A DNA stretch of 64,000 nucleotides, from NCBI GenBank assembly GCA_021785515.1, contig JAJYEX010000005.1, forward strand, positions 187,515-251,514. Reading direction: 5' to 3'. Numbering within the stretch: position 1 is the stretch's first letter; each line of letters opens with the position of its first letter. This stretch comes from Pseudomonadota bacterium. Its GTDB lineage: Bacteria; Pseudomonadota; Gammaproteobacteria; Acidiferrobacterales; UBA6901. The notes under the pieces are model-generated. The model was not told the origin of the DNA. It did not search any database and saw only the letters and a program-made list of their open reading frames with translations. The position numbers and the translations under genes are program-made. Below are positions 16,652 to 30,039 of the stretch, piece after piece.

Positions 16652-17080
16652 TCATAGATTTTCCGCTTTTTCCTTGATCTTTCTGAGCGTGCCGGTGCAC
16701 TGATCCAGATCGCTCTTGCTCAGGCCCGATAGCAGCTCATGGCGCAGCTCGGTTGCGACGGCCTTGATTTTGCGCAGTATTTCGTTGGATTTCTCGGTGA
16801 GATGTACCGTCTTGCTGCGGCGATCTTCTGCAGACTCGCGCCGTTCCAGCCAGCCGTCGCGTGCCATGCGGTCCAGCAGGCCGACCAGGGTCGGTCCTTC
16901 AATTCCCATACGGCAGGCAAGATCCTTCTGAATCATGGCGTCTCCCCCGTGTGAAAGGTGAAGCAGCACCAGCCACTTGGCCTGGCTCAGCCCCAGAGGC
17001 TTCAGACGCTGGTCGAGGCGCGCGCGCCAGGCGCGTGCAGTTTCAGCCAGAAGCACGGGAAACGTTTCAGTGTCAGGCAT
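16652..17080 (-). CDS. MarR-family repressor of the emrAB-like operon
   Basis: The 142-residue protein has the MarR winged-helix core: DNA-recognition helix region DLACRMGIEGPTLVGLLDRMARDGWLE at about 68-96, and the wing ERRESAEDRRSKTVHLT that follows. It is the first gene of the emr-like operon, 61 bp before the adaptor gene, and is probably its ligand-released repressor, as EmrR is. A perfect 13-bp palindrome sits 16-28 bp upstream of its start codon and is a likely operator. The effector is unknown. Confidence 0.9.
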   Translation of the reverse strand: MPDTETFPVLLAETARAWRARLDQRLKPLGLSQAKWLVLLHLSHGGDAMIQKDLACRMGIEGPTLVGLLDRMARDGWLERRESAEDRRSKTVHLTEKSNEILRKIKAVATELRHELLSGLSKSDLDQCTGTLRKIKEKAENL

Positions 17081-17095
17081 CTATAATATAAGCAG

Positions 17096-17108
17096 GCTAA
17101 TAATTAGC
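17096..17108. promoter_or_regulatory. Candidate MarR operator (GCTAATAATTAGC)
   Basis: GCTAAT-A-ATTAGC is a perfect inverted repeat with a one-base centre, directly upstream of the marR-like gene in a locally AT-rich promoter region. MarR dimers usually bind short palindromes of this size near the -10 or start site. Confidence 0.45.
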
Positions 17109-17198
17109 GTACTAAACAATTCTAATCCGCCGGTACGGTGATGGCAAGCCCGGCAGCGTGCCGTCTATCGCCGGCGAGGGTGGGGCTGACCCGGCCCG

Positions 17199-20909
<3,711 letters not shown>

Positions 20910-21059
20910 GGTCACGGTATGGTTCAGCCTAGGGAGCCGTGGAACGGCGGCCAAGTTTAACGAAAAGTGCAGCAAATTGCGCGGTCTGAGATTGCCCGGA
21001 CGCGGGCAGCGAGCCTACACTAGGGCGAGCCATATGTGGCTGGACGCGGAGTGGGCCGG

Positions 21060-21704
21060 GTGTTTCGCGATCGGGACGATGCGGCACGTCAGCTGGCGGG
21101 GAGTCTGGCCCGGTACCGGGGCCAACGACCGCTGGTGCTCGCAATTCCCCGCGGAGCCGTGCCTATGGGCCGGATCATTGCCGATGTTCTGGATGGCGAG
21201 CTCGATGTGGTGCTGGTCCGCAAGATTGGCGCGCCCCACAACCCCGAGTTTGCGGTCGGTTCTGTGGATGAAAGCGGTCAGACCTACATCACCGAGGCTG
21301 CCGCGGGTGCGGGGGCGTCCGCCGCGTACCTTGCCGAGCGCGGACAGACGGAGCTGGCGGTGATGCACGCGCGTCGCGCGCTTTATACGCCAGTCCGTCC
21401 GCCGGTCGATCCCGCCGGGCGTGTTGTGATTGTGGTGGATGATGGCCTGGCGACGGGTGCCACTATGATCTCGGCGCTGCGTTCGGTGCGCACCAGGAAC
21501 CCGGCCCGCCTGATTGCGGCCGTTCCGGTATCCGCACCCGATGCCCTTGCCCGTGTCCGGGAACTGGCCGATGAGACCGTATGCCTGGAGGTGCCCGCCG
21601 GTTTTGCGGCGGTCGGGCAGTTCTACCGGGATTTTCCGCAGGTCGATGATGCCGAAGTGATTGCCGCCCTGGCGGCAGCGTGTGCGGGCAGTCACGCGGA
21701 CTGA
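21060..21704 (+). CDS. Phosphoribosyltransferase-family protein
   Basis: I favour the GTG at 21060 (214 residues), which follows GGAG by eight bases and gives the usual MFRDRDDAARQLA start; in-frame GTGs at 21051 and 21036 also exist. The Rossmann-like PRTase fold is marked by the PRPP motif VVIVVDDGLATGATM near residues 128-142. AIPRGAVPMG near the N-terminus and the VRKIGAPHNPEFA loop are typical of the ComF/erythromycin-esterase-associated PRTase-like family, whose true substrate is generally unknown. It is followed after 30 bp by a CBS-domain gene on the same strand, and the two are probably cotranscribed. Confidence 0.82.
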   Translation: MFRDRDDAARQLAGSLARYRGQRPLVLAIPRGAVPMGRIIADVLDGELDVVLVRKIGAPHNPEFAVGSVDESGQTYITEAAAGAGASAAYLAERGQTELAVMHARRALYTPVRPPVDPAGRVVIVVDDGLATGATMISALRSVRTRNPARLIAAVPVSAPDALARVRELADETVCLEVPAGFAAVGQFYRDFPQVDDAEVIAALAAACAGSHAD

Positions 21705-21734
21705 GCGCGGCCGCACGTTCGCCGGAGGAGACTC

Positions 21735-22190
21735 ATGCCGCTATCCAACCTCAAGCACGCACCCCAGGTCATGCTGGTCATGACGCCGTTTCCGCACTCA
21801 ATCGGTATCGACGAGTCGGTTGCGGCGGCGTATGACATGATGGAGCGGCACGCGATCAGGCACCTGCCGGTCAAGGATGGGGGAGCGCTGGTCGGAGTCA
21901 TCAGCGAGCGCGACGTGGCATTGGCCATGGGAAAGGGGGTGCATCTTCCGTCGGCCCAGACCCTGCGCGTGCGGGAGGTGTACCTCCCGCAGGCTTACGT
22001 TGTGAACGTTCACGAGCGCCTGGACAGCGTGTTGTTGCATATGGCGCAGCAACATATCGGGTCCGCGCTGGTGGTCAAGGATGGGCGGCTGGCGGGGATC
22101 TTCACGATGGCCGACGCCTGCCGGCTTCTGGGAGGGATGTTACGTGACCGTTTCCCGGTTTCCCCCGACGATGATCCCGACGCCGCCTGA
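21735..22190 (+). CDS. CBS-domain pair protein
   Basis: The 151-residue protein consists almost wholly of two CBS repeats (about 12-70 and 82-138), recognisable by HLPVKDGGALVGVISERD and ALVVKDGRLAGIFTMADA. Stand-alone CBS pairs bind adenine nucleotides and act as energy or redox sensors, partners unknown. A strong GGAGGAG lies just before the ATG. The gene follows the PRTase-family gene; linkage of a nucleotide-sensing module to a PRPP-binding fold is suggestive only. It converges on the AmmeMemoRadiSam operon. Confidence 0.88.
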   Translation: MPLSNLKHAPQVMLVMTPFPHSIGIDESVAAAYDMMERHAIRHLPVKDGGALVGVISERDVALAMGKGVHLPSAQTLRVREVYLPQAYVVNVHERLDSVLLHMAQQHIGSALVVKDGRLAGIFTMADACRLLGGMLRDRFPVSPDDDPDAA

Positions 22191-22231
22191 TCATTGTCAC
22201 TGCCGGGAGGGCCAGCGTTGCCTATGCCCTC

Positions 22232-22252
22232 GGCCGGGATTCCGCCCCGGCC
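22232..22252. terminator. GC-rich hairpin between convergent genes
   Basis: GGCCGGG (22232-22238) pairs perfectly with CCCGGCC (22246-22252) around a 7-base loop, in the 77-bp gap between the CBS gene and the radical SAM gene. There is no T-run on either side, so it may aid termination but is not a classic intrinsic terminator. Confidence 0.3.
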
Positions 22253-22267
22253 AGACCGTCCCGGACG

Positions 22268-23347
22268 TTACTCCTGGTGGATCGCCAGCGGGATGCGGCG
22301 GTTGCCAAAGCGGCCCGGAGAATCCGCGTAGCGGCCGGCCAGGATCGTGCCGCAGGAGCGGCATTGTCCGGCGGGACCGAGCTGGTAGCTGACAAGGTCG
22401 TACCAGTCCCGTTCGATGAGAGGGGCGCGACAGCCGGGGCAGTACGTGGTGGCGCCGGCGCGGTCATGTACATTCCCGGTGTAGACATGGTGCAGTCCGG
22501 CACGCAGCGCAATATCGCGGGCCCGCCGCAGGGTGCGCGGCGGAGTGGGCGGCACGTCGGTCATCCTGTAGTCGGGATGGAAGGCGCTGAAGTGCAGGGG
22601 TATATCCGGTCCGAGCTGTTCCGCTATCCATGTGCTGAGTGCCGTGATCTCTGCATCCGAGTCGTTTTTTCCGGGTATCAGGAGCGTGGTGATCTCCAGC
22701 CATACCGCGGTTTCGTGGTGCAGATACTGCAGGGTATCGAGTACCGGCTGCAGGTGCGCGCCGGTGACTTTGAAGTAGAAGTCCTCGCTGAACGCCTTGA
22801 GGTCGACATTGGCCGCGTCCATCCTGGAGAAAAATTCCCGTCGCGGTCCGGGGTGCACGTAGCCGGCGGTCACCGCCACGGTGTGAATGCCGCGCGCGCG
22901 GCAGGCGTCCGCGACGTCCATGGCGTACTCGGTGAATATGATGGGATCGTTGTAGGTAAAGGCGACGCTGGCGCAGTTCGCCCGCTGCGCGGCAGCGGCG
23001 ATTTCCTCCGGCGAGGCCTGATCGGCGAGGCGTTCAAGGTCGCGCGATTTGCTGATGTCCCAGTTCTGGCAGAATTTGCAGGCAAGGTTGCAACCGGCCG
23101 TCCCGAAGGACAGCACGCTTGATCCCGGATAGAAATGGTGCAGCGGCTTCTTTTCGATCGGATCGACGCAGAATCCCGATGACCGGCCATAGGCGGTCAA
23201 TTCCATGTGGTCACCGCGGCGCTGGCGCACGAAACATGCGCCGCGCTGGCCATCGTTGAGGCGGCAGTCGCGCGGACACAGATCGCACTGGATGCGTCCA
23301 TCGGGAAGCAGGTGCCAGTAGCGGGCCAGGCCGGACGGGGTATTCAC
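22268..23347 (-). CDS. AmmeMemoRadiSam system radical SAM enzyme
   Basis: I choose the GTG at 23347 (359 residues): it forms an exact GTGA overlap with the AMMECR1 stop and gives the usual family start before RYWHLLPDGRIQCDLCPRDC. An ATG at 23386 would add 13 residues inside the upstream gene. The 4Fe-4S/AdoMet motif is CNLACKFC (CxxxCxxC). An N-terminal CDLCPRDC set and a C-terminal cysteine cluster (YCPGCRAPL, CRSCG) suggest further metal sites. The enzyme is the catalytic partner in the three-gene AmmeMemoRadiSam system, whose product is not known. A relation to PflA-like activases is visible in sequence style only. Confidence 0.93.
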   Translation of the reverse strand: MNTPSGLARYWHLLPDGRIQCDLCPRDCRLNDGQRGACFVRQRRGDHMELTAYGRSSGFCVDPIEKKPLHHFYPGSSVLSFGTAGCNLACKFCQNWDISKSRDLERLADQASPEEIAAAAQRANCASVAFTYNDPIIFTEYAMDVADACRARGIHTVAVTAGYVHPGPRREFFSRMDAANVDLKAFSEDFYFKVTGAHLQPVLDTLQYLHHETAVWLEITTLLIPGKNDSDAEITALSTWIAEQLGPDIPLHFSAFHPDYRMTDVPPTPPRTLRRARDIALRAGLHHVYTGNVHDRAGATTYCPGCRAPLIERDWYDLVSYQLGPAGQCRSCGTILAGRYADSPGRFGNRRIPLAIHQE

Positions 23348-23916
23348 GGGGTCGCTGCCGCCGAATCCGTTGTGGATTCGCGCCATTTTTGCACCGTGTA
23401 GCGCGATAGCCGCAGCGATTCGTGCCAGAAATCACCGGGCAGGCCTGCCTTGCGCTTCAGATGGACCAGGAACTGCTGCGGCTCCGGCAGCTGTGCCCAG
23501 ACCTGCGGCAGAAACGTACTGCGGTGCGATCCGAATTCGAGCACCACCCCGTCTACGCCCGGACGCAGAAGTGCGCGGGCGTGGCGTTCGTCGTCTGCGG
23601 GCAGGGGTTCGGACGCAGACAGCAGCGATACCTCGACGGTGGTGTCCGCCACCTCATAGCGTGCAAGCGGTGCAAAGCGGGGGTCGCGAAAGGCCGCGGC
23701 CCTGGCGTTTTCCTGGGCGTCGATACGCAGCGGGCGCGTCGCTTCGAGGCTGCCGATGCAGCCGCGCAGTTCACCGCGACGCGTAAGCGTCACAAATGTC
23801 GCGCCCGCTTGCGACAGTCGCGGCAAGTCCCTGTAATTCCGGCATGGCTCCTCCAGCGCCGCGGCGATCGCATTGCGGGCGATGATCAGCAGCGATTGGC
23901 CGAGAGCCTCAGTCAT
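23344..23916 (-). CDS. AmmeMemoRadiSam system protein A (AMMECR1 domain)
   Basis: Read from the ATG at 23916 the protein has 190 residues and is essentially one AMMECR1 domain. The near-invariant LRGCIGSLE motif is at about 51-59, with the FRDPRFAPL and EVSLLS blocks after it. The human homologue is linked to a developmental syndrome, but biochemical activity remains unproven in any organism. Its start overlaps the MEMO1-like stop by eight bases and its stop overlaps the radical SAM start by four, so the three proteins should be made together. A longer start at 23934 is less likely. Confidence 0.92.
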   Translation of the reverse strand: MTEALGQSLLIIARNAIAAALEEPCRNYRDLPRLSQAGATFVTLTRRGELRGCIGSLEATRPLRIDAQENARAAAFRDPRFAPLARYEVADTTVEVSLLSASEPLPADDERHARALLRPGVDGVVLEFGSHRSTFLPQVWAQLPEPQQFLVHLKRKAGLPGDFWHESLRLSRYTVQKWRESTTDSAAATP

Positions 23917-24751
23917 GGCCGTAGTCCGGCACAATCAGGGCGGCGTAGCCTACGACCTGTTCGCGGTCACCCGCGGTGTCCCCGGAGTTGCGCAGGTCCA
24001 GAAGCTCAGGACGCAGTCCGCGGGCGCGGGCAACGCGCAGCAGGCCGCCGAGTGGCGTGCTGCCACAGGCCTCGCTACCGCTTATGGCGCGATCGTCCAA
24101 CGCCAGAATCGACTCGACCGTGCGGCGGTCGGTGGCGCGCGCCACGGCGTAGGGCAGGTAATGGGACAGGTCGGTACTGATTACGAACACAGTCCGCGGA
24201 TCATCCCAAAGGAGTTCGATGACTTCCGCCACTTCCGCCGCGGTCGCATCGCCGACGGCAAAAGGGAGTATCCGGAATGCGCCGAGTACCCGCTGCAAGA
24301 AGGGCAGCTGCACCTCGAGCGAATGTTCACGGGCGTGGACGGCATCGCTCGTGACGACCTGGGGCAGACCCAGGCTCGCCGCTGCGGCCTGTGGGTCGAC
24401 GTCCACGACACCGAGCGGCGTGGCGAAATGCCGGGCGGCGGGCAGCGCCAGGCCCCGGACCAGCAGGCGGTGTGCGGGGCCGAGCAGTACCACCCGTGCG
24501 ACGGAACCGGAATGGGCCCGTAGCCTGGCGTAGGCGCAGGCAGCCACGGCTCCTGAATAGATATAGCCGGCGTGAGGGACGATGAGCGCCTTGGGTCTGC
24601 GGGCATCGGCCGGCGGCGGGATCTGCGACAGCAGCGTATCCACCGTGCGTGTCAGCGTTTCCCGGTCCGCAGGGTAAAAGCTGCCGCTCACGGCCGCCGG
24701 ACGGATACCGGAAGGGGTGTTGAGGGGCTCGCCTCGCGTGAATTCAATCAT
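23909..24751 (-). CDS. AmmeMemoRadiSam system protein B (MEMO1 family)
   Basis: The 280-residue product has the MEMO1 fold, related to extradiol dioxygenases. The expected metal ligands are present: H60 in VPHAGY, H94 in GPAHR, H197 in DLSHY and C229 in SEACGSTPL. MEMO1 proteins bind iron or copper, and a redox role has been proposed. It is the first gene of the three-gene operon and lies 62 bp downstream of the thioesterase gene on the same strand. No strong ribosome-binding site precedes the ATG, so the start is moderately certain. Confidence 0.92.
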   Translation of the reverse strand: MIEFTRGEPLNTPSGIRPAAVSGSFYPADRETLTRTVDTLLSQIPPPADARRPKALIVPHAGYIYSGAVAACAYARLRAHSGSVARVVLLGPAHRLLVRGLALPAARHFATPLGVVDVDPQAAAASLGLPQVVTSDAVHAREHSLEVQLPFLQRVLGAFRILPFAVGDATAAEVAEVIELLWDDPRTVFVISTDLSHYLPYAVARATDRRTVESILALDDRAISGSEACGSTPLGGLLRVARARGLRPELLDLRNSGDTAGDREQVVGYAALIVPDYGHD

Positions 24752-24813
24752 GCTTGTGGAAAATGGGGGCGGGTGGCCCCCAATGCAAGCCGCTGTCGCC
24801 GGGCGCGCACCGG

Positions 24814-25224
24814 TCAGTCCGTCTCCGGCGGAACCTCCCGCGGGCGGCGTTGGTCATCAATTGCGACGTATGTGATGGTTGCCTCCGTGACCTTGACGCA
24901 CTCCGCCGCCCACCCGTCGTTGTGCCGGATACGTTCGGCGTAGACCACCACGTCTACCGTGATGGAGGTGCGTCCGACCCGCACCACTTCGGCATAGAAG
25001 CTCACCACGTCGTTCACGAAAACCGGTTTGCGGAACTGAAAGGCATTTACGGCCACGGTGACGATGCGCCCGCGTGCCCGCCGAAGGGCGGCCACGCTGC
25101 CGGCGATGTCCACCTGCGACATCATCCAGCCGCCGAATATGTCGCCCGCGGAATTGGTATCACAGGGCATAGGCATAATGCGCAATGTGGGGTGACGGTT
25201 GACAGGCAGTTGATCGTTGGTCAT
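24814..25224 (-). CDS. YciA-like acyl-CoA thioesterase (hot-dog fold)
   Basis: From the ATG at 25224 the product has 136 residues, normal for YciA. The family block is clear: PCDTNSAGDIFGGWMMSQVDIAG with the catalytic Asp, then AFQFRKPVFVNDVVSFYAEV. Such enzymes hydrolyse a range of acyl-CoAs in the cytoplasm and help recycle CoA. The in-frame start at 25290 would overlap the ATP-grasp gene and is not favoured. The gene starts 14 bp after the ATP-grasp stop on the same strand, so it may share that transcript. Confidence 0.9.
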   Translation of the reverse strand: MTNDQLPVNRHPTLRIMPMPCDTNSAGDIFGGWMMSQVDIAGSVAALRRARGRIVTVAVNAFQFRKPVFVNDVVSFYAEVVRVGRTSITVDVVVYAERIRHNDGWAAECVKVTEATITYVAIDDQRRPREVPPETD

Positions 25225-25238
25225 GAGTTGTGCTCCCG

Positions 25239-26267
25239 TTACTGTATCCGCGCGGAGGCGTATGCGCGCAGGCCAAGCTGGAGGGTACACTGGATGAATT
25301 CCTCATAGCTCATTCCCGCCCGGCGGGCGGACAGGGTGGTGTCCTCATCGCGGGCGATGCCGGGATTGGGGTTAGCCTCAAGTACATAGAACTGGCCGTT
25401 GCGGGTCAGGCGCAGGTCTATGCGGGCGTAGCCGCTCATGCCCAGTGCGCGGTAGATTCGTTTGCACAGCCGGCCCATGCGTTCCACGGTCTCGGAATCC
25501 AGGTCCGTTGCGAACTGATAGTCTATTCCTCTGCGCTCCCGGTATTTGTCGTCCCATTTGACGCGGTAGGTCGCCAGGCGTGGTTCGCCGTCGGCGGCAT
25601 TGTGGAAGAGCAGCTCGCGCGCCGGCAGCACCCGCAGCCGCGCGTTGCCCAGCACCGTGACGTAGATTTCGCGGCCGTCTATATAGTGTTCGGCAATGGC
25701 ATCATCATGGATGCGGTCGTGGATGAGCTGTACCCGCTCCTGCAGCTGGCGCTCCGTTTCCACGTAGGACGCTTGGGCGATGCCCAGCGAGCCTTCCTCG
25801 GTGAGCGCCTTGACGATTACCGGATAGCGTACGCGTCGCAGCGACAGCGACGCACGGCCGCGCGGGAATACGTGGAAATCCGGAACCTGGATGCGGTGGT
25901 AGGCCAGAAGTTTCTTCGACAGCGCCTTGTCGCGCGCGAGCAGCAGGCCGCGCGGATTGCATCCGGTGTACGGCAGCTTCATCATCTCCAGATAGCTCAC
26001 CAGATAGTAGTCAAATGCCGCGATGCCGGCGAACTCCTCGAGCAGATTGAAAGCAATGTCCGGTTTCCATTCCTCTATCGCGGTGCGTATCGGAAGGAGG
26101 TCATCATAGACCCCGACCACGCGGACTTCGTGACCGAGTTTGAGCAGGGCATGTTTGACGTCGTATTCGGTACGAAACTTGTCCATCCGCGGATCGTCTG
26201 CCGAGTGCAGATCATCAGGCGGGACCAGCGAGTAATGCACTAGCATCATGACCCGGAGCTTTTTCAT
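25239..26267 (-). CDS. ATP-grasp ligase, D-alanine-D-alanine-ligase-like
   Basis: The 342-residue protein (ATG at 26267) has three ATP-grasp parts: an N-terminal pre-grasp domain with a PDIAFNLLEEFAG block, the central lid with YPVIVKALTEEGSLGI, and the C-terminal metal/ATP site ARIDLRLTRNGQFYVLEANP with acidic/Asn ligands. This is closest in pattern to D-Ala-D-Ala ligases, but a cell normally carries its true ddl with the cell-division genes, so this is probably a paralogue joining another carboxylate to an amine. Its ATG overlaps the stop of the metallopeptidase gene (ATGA). Substrate unknown. Confidence 0.82.
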   Translation of the reverse strand: MKKLRVMMLVHYSLVPPDDLHSADDPRMDKFRTEYDVKHALLKLGHEVRVVGVYDDLLPIRTAIEEWKPDIAFNLLEEFAGIAAFDYYLVSYLEMMKLPYTGCNPRGLLLARDKALSKKLLAYHRIQVPDFHVFPRGRASLSLRRVRYPVIVKALTEEGSLGIAQASYVETERQLQERVQLIHDRIHDDAIAEHYIDGREIYVTVLGNARLRVLPARELLFHNAADGEPRLATYRVKWDDKYRERRGIDYQFATDLDSETVERMGRLCKRIYRALGMSGYARIDLRLTRNGQFYVLEANPNPGIARDEDTTLSARRAGMSYEEFIQCTLQLGLRAYASARIQ

Positions 26268-27292
26268 AGTGTCAGACGCGAACTTCCGGCGTGCAGCGAT
26301 CCCATGTACAGCATGATCAGCGCGGATATGAGGGGTTGCTGCGGGCAATCCCGTCCGGGGGAGGCCTGCAGCTCGAGTTCATCGGCGAGTTGTGCCATGT
26401 GTTCGAGTGTCAGGTGCACCCGGTAGCGCGGTGTTCCGGTCCAGAGCGAAACCGCCGCGAGGGCGGCGCGGCGGTGGCGCCGGATGAAGCGCGCAGCCGG
26501 CACGGTGCGACGCGCCTTGGTGGCGGGAAAAATGCGCTCGAGCTGCTGACGATGAAAGTGCGGGACGCCGACGCTCAGCCGCTGCTGCTTCTGTTCGAAA
26601 TACTGGTGTAGCGTCAGGCGCAGCGAGCTTAAAGAATCAATCTGGGTACGGTTGCGCACTGGCGGGTGGTGCGGGCCGATCTCGCGCATCAGTTCATCGA
26701 CGTACTCGAGCTTGCGCAGGGCCGGCCAGCCGCGATAGCGCTCGCGCCAGTCCGAATGCGGGTTCATCCATACCGCGAAGGTCTCCGCCCAGTCTTCGTG
26801 CGGATGGCTCTGTGCATACCAGCCCTCGAGGTGGATGACATAGCGACGGCTGTCGGGGCGCGGAAGGTAGCTTTCCGGATAGGTGCGCCCGGCGCGCCCG
26901 AAGCGCCGTCGCCATTGCTGCCTGCGGTGCAGGCGGTAGGCATTGGCCAGCGCATGCGCTGTCTCGTGACGCATGAGTTTCTGGCACTCGCTGGCATTGC
27001 CGCCCTCGGTCTCGAGTATCCAGCGTCGCTCCAACTGCCGCAGGCGGGGATGCGCCAGATAGAAGGGGATGGCAAAGCCCGGCACGCCATCGGGGCTGAA
27101 CCAGCAGTCCGACAGCCAGCAGTGTGGCCGGAACGCGATGCCACGACGCTGCATGCCGTGATAGAGCGCGGCAAGCTGCGGTTCCAGAGGGCTGCCCGCG
27201 ATGGCGAGACCAAGGTCGCAGATCCGGGTTTCGAGTAATCGCTCCTCGGGCCAGCCAGCCCAACGATGGTGTCTGGCGCGCCGGTGTGCCAT
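26264..27292 (-). CDS. Putative zinc-dependent metallopeptidase coupled to ATP-grasp gene
   Basis: From the ATG at 27292 the product has 342 residues; a GTG at 27343 would add 17. The gluzincin-like motif HETAH lies at 109-113, and a downstream PHEDWAETFAVW block supplies an acidic third ligand (E or D near 166-170). There is no signal peptide and the sequence is strongly Arg/His-rich, so a cytoplasmic location is likely. Proteins of this kind are annotated only as putative zinc-binding metallopeptidases. The four-base overlap with the ATP-grasp gene indicates coupled synthesis of a peptide-cleaving and a peptide-bond-forming type enzyme. Substrate unknown. Confidence 0.8.
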   Translation of the reverse strand: MAHRRARHHRWAGWPEERLLETRICDLGLAIAGSPLEPQLAALYHGMQRRGIAFRPHCWLSDCWFSPDGVPGFAIPFYLAHPRLRQLERRWILETEGGNASECQKLMRHETAHALANAYRLHRRQQWRRRFGRAGRTYPESYLPRPDSRRYVIHLEGWYAQSHPHEDWAETFAVWMNPHSDWRERYRGWPALRKLEYVDELMREIGPHHPPVRNRTQIDSLSSLRLTLHQYFEQKQQRLSVGVPHFHRQQLERIFPATKARRTVPAARFIRRHRRAALAAVSLWTGTPRYRVHLTLEHMAQLADELELQASPGRDCPQQPLISALIMLYMGSLHAGSSRLTL

Positions 27293-27611
27293 GCCGGCAT
27301 GCAGCGTGACGTCCGGACTCACGAAACGCCGATGGTGCGGCACTGGAGGCGGAGCGGTGCAGGCATGTGTCAGGGTGGGCCGTCGCTAAGTGGTTAGCAC
27401 GTAATATAATCGAAACCCGGTCAGTGTAAATCCCGTCAGGCGCGTGGCGGCCGCTTGCGGCGGGTGCAGGCGCTGCGCTTTTCCAGTACCCTGTGTTTCG
27501 GTGGAATGTGCGGGGGCGTACACCCTGCGCAAGCCGTCAGATCGGGGCAGGCCAGCGAGGATTCATCTGAACGCCGAAAACGAACTGTATCCGTCCCCGG
27601 TGCGTACCCGC

Positions 27612-28454
27612 ATGCCCTGGCTTGGCCGCCAGGGCGTGGTGGCGGTCACGCTGCTTTCAATCGTGGCCGTGTCGGCGCACGCCGGCCAGCGGCCCCTGTG
27701 GGAGGCGGGTCTCGGTGTGGCGCCGCTCACAATCCCCGACTATCCCGGTTCAGACCAGCGGCACAGCTACGTGCTGCCGCTGCCATACTTTGTGTATCGC
27801 GGGCGGATTCTGACTGTCGGACGCAATGGCATCGCGGGGCATCTGCTGCGGAGCCGTCGAATCCACCTCTCCGTCAGCGTTAATGCCGGGGCCCCGGTAA
27901 ACAGCAGCAGCAGCGATGCCCGCGCCGGAATGCCCAGTCTCTACCCGACGCTGGAGATCGGGCCAGTGCTCGACGTGTGCCTCGATCCGGTCTGCAGGCG
28001 CGCGTCTGGCTGGTCCGTCAGTTTGCCGCTGCGCGCGGTGATCGCGACCGACGTGCGTCATTCGCATTTCATTGGCTGGGTCTTCAACCCGCTGGTGGGT
28101 TATGACACCCGACTGTGGTTGGGCGGCCTGCCTTGGCATTTCGGCGGAACACTCGGTCCGGTATTCGCAACCGCCGAACATAACGCCTACTACTACCAGG
28201 TCGACCCGGTCTATGCCACGGTGGTGCGGCCGCCGTACGTGGCGCACGGCGGCTATAGCGGAATGCGGCTGACCTTTGCAGTCAGCCGGCGCTTCCGCAA
28301 TACCTGGTTCGGTGCGTTTGTGCGCTACGACAACCTGTACGCGGCGGTATTCGAGAACAGTCCGCTCGTGCGTACCCGGAATTCCGTTATGGCGGGGTTC
28401 GGCGTGGCCTGGATCTTCGCGCATTCCGCTGCCATGGCTCCGGCCCGGCGGTGA
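27612..28454 (+). CDS. MipA/OmpV-family outer-membrane protein
   Basis: The ATG at 27612 gives 280 residues with a signal peptide (hydrophobic VVAVTLLSIVAVSAHA). The mature part is a beta-barrel type sequence with alternating strands and the MipA opening GVAPLTIPDYPGSDQRHSYVLPLPYF. It ends in aromatic strands near SVMAGFGVAWIF. MipA/OmpV proteins are outer-membrane scaffolds for murein enzymes or small porins; the role here is undefined. An in-frame GTG at 27600 and a much longer frame from 27444 are possible, but the upstream part lacks coding character. Confidence 0.85.
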   Translation: MPWLGRQGVVAVTLLSIVAVSAHAGQRPLWEAGLGVAPLTIPDYPGSDQRHSYVLPLPYFVYRGRILTVGRNGIAGHLLRSRRIHLSVSVNAGAPVNSSSSDARAGMPSLYPTLEIGPVLDVCLDPVCRRASGWSVSLPLRAVIATDVRHSHFIGWVFNPLVGYDTRLWLGGLPWHFGGTLGPVFATAEHNAYYYQVDPVYATVVRPPYVAHGGYSGMRLTFAVSRRFRNTWFGAFVRYDNLYAAVFENSPLVRTRNSVMAGFGVAWIFAHSAAMAPARR

Positions 28455-28581
28455 ACCGCGCGGCGTGCGCGGTTCGGCGCTGCTGTGCGGTGGCGATACG
28501 GCAATCCTATGGATATCCGCGATTCCAGCCGTTACACTCTTGCTCATCCCCACGAGCCTGCAGACGCCGTCCGGACCCAAC

Positions 28582-28890
28582 ATGCAGCAGCCGCAGTCCC
28601 TGGAAGAGTATCTCGATATCATCGAACAGGCCCAGTTCGAGATCGAGGACCTGTTGCGCTGTGCGGAGGAGGAGGGCGACGGTCTGCAGGAGTTCGGCGC
28701 GCGCATTCCAATATATCACCAGCTCGGTGCGGCGCTGGACCGGCTGCACGCGGAGGTCGCGGACGGGTCCCATGAGTTCGCAAACGCCCAGGATCTGGCC
28801 ATGATGCCCCTGGTGCGCGAGTGGAAGGCGTACATACCGTTCCACGTTCTGCTCGAGACGATCAATACCGTTCACCTGTCTGGCTTCTGA
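28582..28890 (+). CDS. Small acidic hypothetical protein upstream of aroC
   Basis: The ATG at 28582 opens a 102-residue, strongly acidic, helical protein (SLEEYLDIIEQAQFEIEDLL, then RIPIYHQLGAALDRLHAEV) without signal peptide or membrane helix. I do not recognise the family. Its coherent amphipathic helices and position directly before aroC on the same strand (51-bp gap) argue that it is a real gene. A longer in-frame start at 28276 overlaps mipA and is rejected. Confidence 0.65.
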   Translation: MQQPQSLEEYLDIIEQAQFEIEDLLRCAEEEGDGLQEFGARIPIYHQLGAALDRLHAEVADGSHEFANAQDLAMMPLVREWKAYIPFHVLLETINTVHLSGF

Positions 28891-28941
28891 CCGGTTTTCC
28901 GGCCCCTGTCGGGGCTGGACCAAATCCGGTACCATGCCGTC

Positions 28942-30039
28942 ATGTCCGGCAATACCTTCGGCAAGCTGTTCTCGGTCACCACCTGCGGAGAGAGTCACGG
29001 TCCCGCGTATCTGTGTATCGTCGACGGCTGCCCACCGGGCATGGCGCTGTGCGAGGCCGATCTGCAACATGACCTGGACCGGCGAAAGCCGGGACAGTCG
29101 CGTCATACCACCCAGCGGCGCGAGGCCGACGAGGTGACGATTCTCTCGGGCGTATTCGAGGGCCGCACCACGGGAACGCCGATAGGCCTGATGATCCAGA
29201 ACACGGATCAGCGGTCACAGGACTATTCGAAGATCATGGACCGGTTCCGGCCCGGCCATGCGGATTACACCTATCAGCAGAAATACGGGTTGCGCGATTA
29301 TCGCGGCGGCGGGCGGGCATCGGCGCGCGAGACGGCGATGCGCGTGGCCGCTGGGGCGATCGCGAAGAAGTATCTGGCCGAGCGCTTCGGCATTGCGGTA
29401 CGCGGCTATCTGTCGGAGCTCGGACCGATCCGCATGGAGCGGATCGAATGGGACCAGGTCGAGGCCAATCCGTTTTTCTGCCCGGACCCGCAGAAGCTGC
29501 CGCAGCTGGAGGCCTACATGGATGCGCTGCGCAAGGAGGGTGATTCCATCGGGGCGCGCGTCAACGTTGTTGCGACCCAGGTACCCGTCGGTCTGGGAGA
29601 GCCGGTGTTCGGGCGCCTCGATGCCGACATCGCGGCGGCGCTCATGAGTATCAATGCCGTCAAGGGTGTGGAGATAGGGGCGGGTTTTGCCAGCATCGGC
29701 CAGAAGGGCAGCAGCCATCGCGATGAGATGACACCGCAGGGTTTTCTGAGCAATCACGCCGGCGGCATACTCGGCGGCATATCGACGGGTCAGGACATCG
29801 TTGCAAGCATCGCACTCAAGCCTACCTCCAGCATCCGGCTGCCGGGTCGCACGGTCGACCTCGCAGGCAATCCGGTCGAGATCGTGACCACCGGACGGCA
29901 CGATCCCTGTGTTGGCATCCGGGCCACCCCCATCGCCGAGGCCATGCTCGCTATCGTGCTGATGGACCATGTCTTGCGCCAGCGCGCGCAGAATGCCGAT
30001 GTGGTGCGTACTACGCCTGATATCGCGAGTCGTTGTTAA
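28942..30039 (+). CDS. aroC: Chorismate synthase
   Basis: The 365-residue protein has the family landmarks: N-terminal [19 protein letters not shown], the [18 protein letters not shown] block, and [23 protein letters not shown] near 250. It converts EPSP to chorismate in the last shared step of aromatic amino-acid synthesis, in the cytoplasm, with reduced FMN. Length matches bacterial AroC. The methyltransferase gene follows 32 bp later, probably in the same transcript. Confidence 0.97.

Follow-up and report, generated by a model that had tools for sequence, protein, structure and literature searches.

A tightly overlapped AmmeMemoRadiSam gene set: MEMO and AMMECR1 as a possible two-part metalloprotein with a separate radical SAM enzyme

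Introduction

Do the three proteins of the AmmeMemoRadiSam system work as one complex, and on what might they act? The question is raised by a locus within a 64,000-nucleotide stretch of DNA (positions 187,515 to 251,514 of the forward strand of contig JAJYEX010000005.1, GenBank assembly GCA_021785515.1; hereafter the window) from a gammaproteobacterium (GTDB lineage Acidiferrobacterales; UBA6901), in which genes for a MEMO protein, an AMMECR1 protein and a radical S-adenosylmethionine (SAM) enzyme overlap end to end. A first-pass annotation of this DNA had taken the gapless layout as an argument for a stoichiometric complex of all three. Comparisons with relatives suggest that MEMO and AMMECR1 often constitute one unit, with the radical SAM protein as a helper enzyme apart from them.

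The system carries a name and, as had been remarked at the outset, no assigned reaction: the NCBIfam models for its proteins (TIGR04335, TIGR04336, and TIGR04337) are of the kind 'hypoth_equivalog', and no paper assigning a reaction was found among the matches listed from a literature collection that covers few subscription journals.

The Gene Set in the Window

The AmmeMemoRadiSam gene set consists of three complete frames on the minus strand (24751-22268). The MEMO gene (AmmeMemoRadiSam protein B, amrB; 280 aa) occupies 23909..24751, from an ATG at 24751 to a TGA at 23909, and its product matches TIGR04336 with 264.3 bits (1e-78; cut-off 26) and PF01875 (3.3e-53). AMMECR1 (AmmeMemoRadiSam protein A, amrA; 190 aa) follows at 23344..23916, from ATG 23916 to TGA 23344, and matches TIGR04335 with 190.5 bits (1.6e-56; cut-off 99) and PF01871 (3e-44). 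The radical SAM enzyme (amrS; 359 aa from a GTG) is encoded at 22268..23347 and matches PF04055 and, with 632.5 bits, TIGR04337 (1.5e-190; cut-off 220). All three scores lie far above the NCBIfam cut-offs and the CxxxCxxC motif is present, which identifies the proteins as AmmeMemoRadiSam members and bears out the earlier description of three complete parts. The window set is an ordinary, intact copy of a named, widespread system (amrA, amrB, amrS) that comprises the same three proteins in one operon, and nothing essential differs. A single MEMO copy is present in the window's genome.

Both overlaps described by the first-pass annotation can be read directly from the sequence. The AMMECR1 start lies inside the MEMO stop in an 8-bp overlap (ATGACTGA, 23916-23909, minus strand), and the radical SAM start lies inside the AMMECR1 stop in a 4-bp overlap, GTGA (23347-23344, minus strand). 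In three loci of the same genus (L047, L050, and L051) the -8 overlap recurs, as does the -4 overlap with ATG instead of GTG. An alternative in-frame ATG for the radical SAM gene is found at 23386, 39 bp upstream of GTG 23347; the GTG is preferred because the three same-genus loci place their ATG at the same -4 position.

Such overlaps could be taken to couple translation so that equal amounts of three proteins enter one stoichiometric complex. Among the 30 same-strand neighbor pairs of the window, nine permit a 4- or 8-bp overlap, two of them in the operon and seven among the 28 pairs elsewhere, a count that rests on a crude gene set; the overlaps of the operon therefore constitute no special argument. 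The gene content of the set exceeds chance, and overlaps of 4 or 8 bp are commonplace.

Gene Layout and Co-occurrence in Relatives

Layout was compared in 113 distinct loci with a radical SAM match above 500 bits, the window included and two duplicates dropped, a set that was picked by the radical SAM gene and not by MEMO. All three genes are present in 98 of the loci, and in the other 15 one or both partners are not in the stretch, partly because loci end early. Every one of the 98 three-gene loci has MEMO next to AMMECR1 on one strand, and in 16 the two are fused. The 82 unfused pairs have gaps of -26 to +18 bases, values that are biased toward overlaps since the start nearest the upstream stop was used. 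An AMMECR1-first order scored for locus L130 proved to be an artifact, the contig end having truncated the frame; the junction reads MEMO to AMMECR1 with a -4 overlap. Among 17 MEMO-AMMECR1 fusions in named loci, the linker measures 7-23 aa in 15; the values of the other two are artifacts of a split match. A fusion is also present on an Ideonella plasmid.

The radical SAM gene shares the strand of its partners in 65 of the 98 three-gene loci and lies on the other strand in 33. The window copy is collinear (MEMO-AMMECR1-radical SAM), whereas in 24 of the 29 three-gene loci from its order the radical SAM gene is oriented opposite to its partners; these 24 make up most of the 33, which are thus not independent. 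Of 400 Chloroflexota genomes, 143 have MEMO above cut-off and 116 the radical SAM protein. In 40 loci picked by MEMO from the 143, a same-strand radical SAM gene precedes MEMO in 16 and an opposite-strand one is found in 2, the stretches of the remaining 22 showing none.

Co-occurrence was counted in 249 genomes of the window's phylum, MEMO and AMMECR1 being present in 93 each and the radical SAM protein, above cut-off, in 91. MEMO and AMMECR1 occur together in 92, the former alone of the two in genome G174 and the latter alone in G184. MEMO and the radical SAM protein are found together in 86, MEMO without it in seven (completeness 57-96%), and the reverse in five, while 85 genomes hold all three genes. 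Partial sets are present in G174, G200, and G217, each of which is listed as 100% complete.

A single three-protein complex is unlikely in the light of these counts. It would sit well with the tight overlaps of the window and the three same-genus loci and with the strand common to all three genes in 65 loci, but not with a radical SAM gene that changes strand in a third of the loci and that stands upstream or outside the stretch in most of the 40 Chloroflexota loci, nor with the partial sets of genomes listed as complete, nor with overlap sizes that suit seven other pairs of the window equally. What survives of the proposed complex is some support for its MEMO and AMMECR1 parts, through adjacency, fusion, short linkers, and the fusion model described below; the radical SAM protein falls outside it.

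Several observations stand beside these counts. In 20 of the 40 Chloroflexota MEMO loci (among L246-L285) the stretch contains MEMO without either partner gene, and in L254-L256 a small gene directly adjoins the lone MEMO gene. A priA-like gene near MEMO was named by eye in 10 of the 40 loci (among L267-L283) and a RarA-like ATPase gene in 9 (among L246-L262). Among 14 genomes reached through loci, G305, G307, G309, and G318 carry AMMECR1 outside the stretch around the radical SAM gene.

Among 72,556 plasmid records searched with the window proteins as queries, MEMO was matched in 2 and AMMECR1 in 1 (E 1e-5), counts that are a lower bound, the AMMECR1 part of a Segatella fusion having been recovered by profile only; the radical SAM protein was matched in 6 (E 1e-30). 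The 50,697 phage records gave one MEMO match, to an unverified faecal clone of possibly bacterial origin. The Sinorhizobium terangae megaplasmid (L214) and S. chiapasense encode radical SAM proteins 66-67% identical to that of the window; no MEMO or AMMECR1 match was obtained on these Sinorhizobium plasmids in a search of the plasmids, chromosomes lying outside it. In L214, weak partial archease-like matches are found in two frames (608-1188, best 47.8 bits), about 4.6 kb from the radical SAM gene.

Metal Ligands, Conserved Motifs and Predicted Structures

Conservation was assessed by aligning the window proteins with 108 other distinct MEMO rows, 105 AMMECR1 rows, and 112 radical SAM rows. 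In the profile alignment, MEMO residues H60 (24572..24574, minus strand), H94 (24470..24472, minus strand), and C229 (24065..24067, minus strand) correspond to H49, H81, and C244 of human MEMO1, which coordinate iron in the crystal (PMC11081632). Both histidines are conserved in 108/108 other rows and the cysteine in all 106 rows with a residue, two being gapped. The window MEMO would accordingly be expected, from its sequence, to bind iron. A later, wider set included four divergent fusions with Ser at the C229 position. These MEMO-like fusions (L183, L184, L185, and L187) have, by alignment, the third ligand changed from Cys to Ser and one of the two His replaced, and they are possibly metal-free MEMO relatives.

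The AMMECR1 motif LRGCIG (L50-G55; 23752..23769, minus strand) has G52, C53, and G55 in 105/105 other rows, and the human AMMECR1 disease mutation G177D falls within it (PMC5502304). Human MEMO1 has been linked to cancer (PMC11081632), so the disease links that had been attributed to two human relatives are on record. In the radical SAM protein, the cluster motif CxxxCxxC (C86, C90, and C93; 23069..23092, minus strand) is conserved in 112/112 other rows, as are eight more cysteines near both ends (C21, C24, C28, and C38; C303, C306, C329, and C332). The metal ligands named by the first-pass annotation are therefore all retained.

Fold relationships of MEMO and AMMECR1 were examined via a homologous MEMO-AMMECR1 fusion (L052, 452 aa) that is 62-63% identical to the window proteins; folded with 43 other rows it gave a mean pLDDT of 94.1 and a pTM of 0.81, the latter giving moderate confidence in the predicted placement of the two parts relative to each other. 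In VIA comparisons the model matches human MEMO1 (7kq8) with Z 33.9 (rmsd 1.8, 257 residues) and the AMMECR1 relative 1vaj with Z 22.0 (rmsd 2.7, 184 residues). Matches to named extradiol dioxygenases are weaker (Z 13.2-16.2) and place the MEMO part in the class III fold, with Z 13.9-16.2 for LigAB (1bou) and aminophenol dioxygenase (3vsh, 7txy); a family missing from these comparisons is not thereby excluded. Human MEMO1 (7kq8, 3bcz), picked up by the MEMO family profile at 5.3e-38, shares this fold and the two-His-one-Cys ligand set. The relatives of AMMECR1 with solved structures, archaeal PH0010 (1vaj), ST0229 (1wsc), and MM0484 (1zq7), are similar to it in sequence and share with it, as does human AMMECR1, both the fold and the LRGCIG motif. 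The archaeal AMMECR1 family, which has been placed among top-priority unknowns, is listed with a different linked gene (PMC6393860).

The third ligand separates the window MEMO from the dioxygenases, being Cys (C229) in the former and Glu in the latter (PMC11081632), and the two-His-one-carboxylate site of the class III enzymes is not present in the window protein. The active site of LigAB is completed by a small partner (PMC10094722). By analogy with that small subunit, MEMO and AMMECR1 may form one two-part metalloprotein, in which MEMO, with its extradiol-dioxygenase fold, would hold Fe(II) by two His and one Cys, and AMMECR1, with its invariant LRGCIG cysteine, would pack against MEMO to create a composite site.

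The model of the window radical SAM protein (mean pLDDT 86.6, pTM 0.89) is nearest to pyruvate formate-lyase (PFL) activase (3cb8; Z 22.8, rmsd 2.9, 225 residues, model residues 52-290), and thus has the fold of the glycyl radical enzyme activases. The radical SAM core is shared with the PFL activating enzyme (3cb8, 3c8f), from which the window protein differs in its extra cysteine-rich ends and in the lack of a glycyl radical enzyme in its genome. That it activates a conventional glycyl radical enzyme was considered and rejected, PF01228 having 0 matches in the window's genome (control for this search: matches in 3/14). The most plausible place of the radical SAM protein would be that of a separate, PFL-activase-like enzyme of the same pathway, not a fixed subunit.

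The ligands also admit an account in which MEMO handles iron or protects against redox damage, with the radical SAM protein as client, and the set guards iron-sulfur enzymes, other radical SAM proteins among them. Iron binding and genetic interactions with iron genes have been described for human MEMO1 (PMC11081632), the iron ligands are kept in the window MEMO, and a MEMO without the other two genes, as in 20 Chloroflexota stretches, would be in keeping with such a function; but no iron-uptake or iron-sulfur assembly gene was recognized by eye among the recurrent neighbors and AMMECR1 is left unexplained, and we regard the account as decidedly unlikely.

Genomic Neighborhood and Substrate Class

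A lead to the substrate comes from the neighborhood of the system in the window's order. Among 57 genomes of the order, the radical SAM protein is found above cut-off in 34, archease in 26, and RtcB in 33, and 25 of the 26 archease genomes also carry the radical SAM gene. In a picture frequent among 32 order-level loci, a hydrolase, a phosphoribosyltransferase, AMMECR1, and MEMO are encoded on one strand, the opposite strand carrying the radical SAM gene, archease, and RtcB, frequently along with a second phosphoribosyltransferase. Of the 32 loci, 19 have archease no more than 1 kb from the radical SAM gene and 18 have RtcB no more than 2 kb from it, in every case on the strand of the radical SAM gene. 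A Segatella plasmid, from a different phylum, has RtcB on the other strand, two genes away from a MEMO-AMMECR1 fusion and a radical SAM gene.

Because archease and RtcB follow the radical SAM gene in sister families, the substrate class would most likely be RNA or a nucleotide, through base modification or repair. Taken as a whole, the proposal is of a composite-site MEMO-AMMECR1 metalloprotein that is served by a separate radical SAM enzyme and acts on RNA or a nucleotide; we hold it tentatively, with its composite site, radical SAM role, and substrate class all reached by inference.

A number of observations weigh against this proposal. AMMECR1 is not in the stretch in 24 of the 40 Chloroflexota MEMO loci (a count of stretches, not of whole genomes), being fused in 10 and separate in 6; it was not found anywhere in genome G174, nor in G306, G308, and G317, and is present in the other 11 of the 14 genomes reached through loci. 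The pairing of MEMO and AMMECR1 is common but not universal. Human MEMO1 displayed no dioxygenase activity with the substrates tried (PMC11081632). As to RNA, kinship confounds the order-level co-occurrence of archease with the radical SAM gene, family f66 being without both, and archease is present in only 5 of the 249 phylum genomes, of which G219, G056, and G148 have the system and two do not. Archease and RtcB profiles, built from the window's order and so liable to miss distant forms, match 0/40 Chloroflexota loci. Neither protein was found in the window's genome (99.9% complete), so that neither is needed, and four genus mates carry both on contigs other than that of the radical SAM gene. 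The MEMO loci without AMMECR1 slightly lower our already guarded confidence in the proposal as a whole.

The RtcB-archease RNA repair cluster thus supplies genes near the system in sister families and none in the window's genome (G000), which in this respect is unlike its four genus mates through either joint loss or an assembly gap. In the window's order the system is repeatedly accompanied by genes for a phosphoribosyltransferase, a hydrolase, and a CBS protein (window 21036-22190; L132-L163), a neighborhood that looks like a stress island, and archease/RtcB and the AmmeMemoRadiSam set could both be parts of one such island. Among leads to the substrate RNA ranks first, but it is no more than a lead.

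The product or target of the set might equally be a small molecule, such as an isoprenoid or a cofactor, and not RNA, an explanation that we consider possible but doubtful. Burroughs and colleagues reportedly predicted nucleotide base and isoprenoid modification in 2019. The predicted extradiol-dioxygenase fold of the MEMO part would suit such chemistry and the Chloroflexota neighbors give no hint of RNA, but no biosynthetic gene set was recognized by eye among the recurrent neighbors, most of which have no family-scan names. The same 2019 study is cited elsewhere for 'Memo-Ammecr1 systems' (PMC7159879).

Glycine 268 and the Radical SAM Enzyme

The PFL-activase-like fold also raises the possibility that the target of the radical SAM enzyme is MEMO itself. 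The C-terminal strand QVVGYA of MEMO (Q265-A270; 23942..23959, minus strand), which we take to resemble the glycyl-radical loop of PFL, has Gly at position 268 in 102 of the 107 rows (window included) that show a residue there. The enzyme might act on G268 in the VVGYA strand as PFL activase acts on a glycyl-radical enzyme, a suggestion that we rate as highly improbable. Its extension, no less remote, is that a hydrogen is taken from G268 and MEMO-AMMECR1, turned into a glycyl-radical enzyme of extradiol-dioxygenase fold or one with a modified backbone, then acts on RNA or a nucleotide; if this were true, eukaryotic MEMO1, with Ser and no activase, would have kept the iron site alone.

The nearest solved fold is a PFL activase whose structure was solved with a peptide substrate, the V-V-G-Y strand is conserved, the window's genome has no glycyl radical enzyme that could serve as target in its stead, and Ser stands at position 268 in 12 of 14 alignable second-type paralogues (10 more are unalignable) and in human MEMO1, for which we know of no radical SAM activase partner. 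Set against this, Gly is kept in the Chloroflexota genome G347, which has no TIGR04337 match (completeness not given), and in two second-type paralogues (L010 and L011), and the G268 position opens a predicted strand. Oxygen destroys glycyl radicals, and several named hosts of the system are presumably aerobes.

Gly268 was tried as a marker of radical SAM dependence and kept only as a low-probability case. Distinct MEMO rows beside a type-1 radical SAM gene (at least 540 bits) have Gly268 in 110/110; rows beside other radical SAM types comprise 5 with Ser, 4 with Gly (L010 and L011 of the second type, L069 and L205 placed there by score only), and 3 unaligned; and rows without a radical SAM gene in the locus comprise 23 with Gly, 7 with Ser, and 7 unaligned. 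The Ser268 rows belong mostly to one paralogue clade.

The second-type system (L002-L011) has a MEMO-AMMECR1 fusion and, in the same locus, a radical SAM paralogue of 460-484 bits that is without the C-terminal tail and terminates in GVWx. Among its fusions, several have Ser at position 268, L010 and L011 have Gly, and L007-L009 are unaligned. One TGA inside ten of the radical SAM paralogues, after GVWx, was considered as a selenocysteine codon and rejected; it is an ordinary stop overrun by the alignment, because the downstream sequence is unconserved and no common hairpin was apparent in single folds of the 55 bases after the TGA, compared by eye. In a third radical SAM type (L013-L015) a frame of 495-542 aa is found with no MEMO or AMMECR1 in the locus, and in L014 and L015 a next gene resembles, by eye, a pyridoxal phosphate (PLP)-dependent sulfur amino acid enzyme.

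Other Features of the Window

Downstream of the operon, the other strand encodes a CBS protein (21735-22190) and then a phosphoribosyltransferase (21036-21704), and 17199-20975 resembles metH, a name assigned by eye. A YciA-like thioesterase and an ATP-grasp ligase are encoded upstream of the operon. No RNA element above Rfam gathering scores was detected in 17000-30000. Scans for promoter-like sites (2, beyond the operon 3′ end; 0.7 expected) and terminator-like sites (1, on the other strand; 2.1 expected) gave nothing usable. An NTPSG stretch occurs near the starts of both MEMO (LNTPSGI, 24751-24700) and the radical SAM protein (VNTPSGL, 23347-23330), probably by chance.

Implications

We know of no AmmeMemoRadiSam-type operon in man, and human MEMO1 differs from the window protein by the Ser at G268. 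Two of the three proteins nevertheless have human relatives, and the iron ligands and the LRGCIG motif are identical in the window. Since the two are neighbors in bacteria and often fused in relatives, their shared biochemistry may be testable in a simple host, where they would be the pair to co-purify. The archease-RtcB neighborhood in the window's order suggests that RNA nucleosides would be the first place to look.

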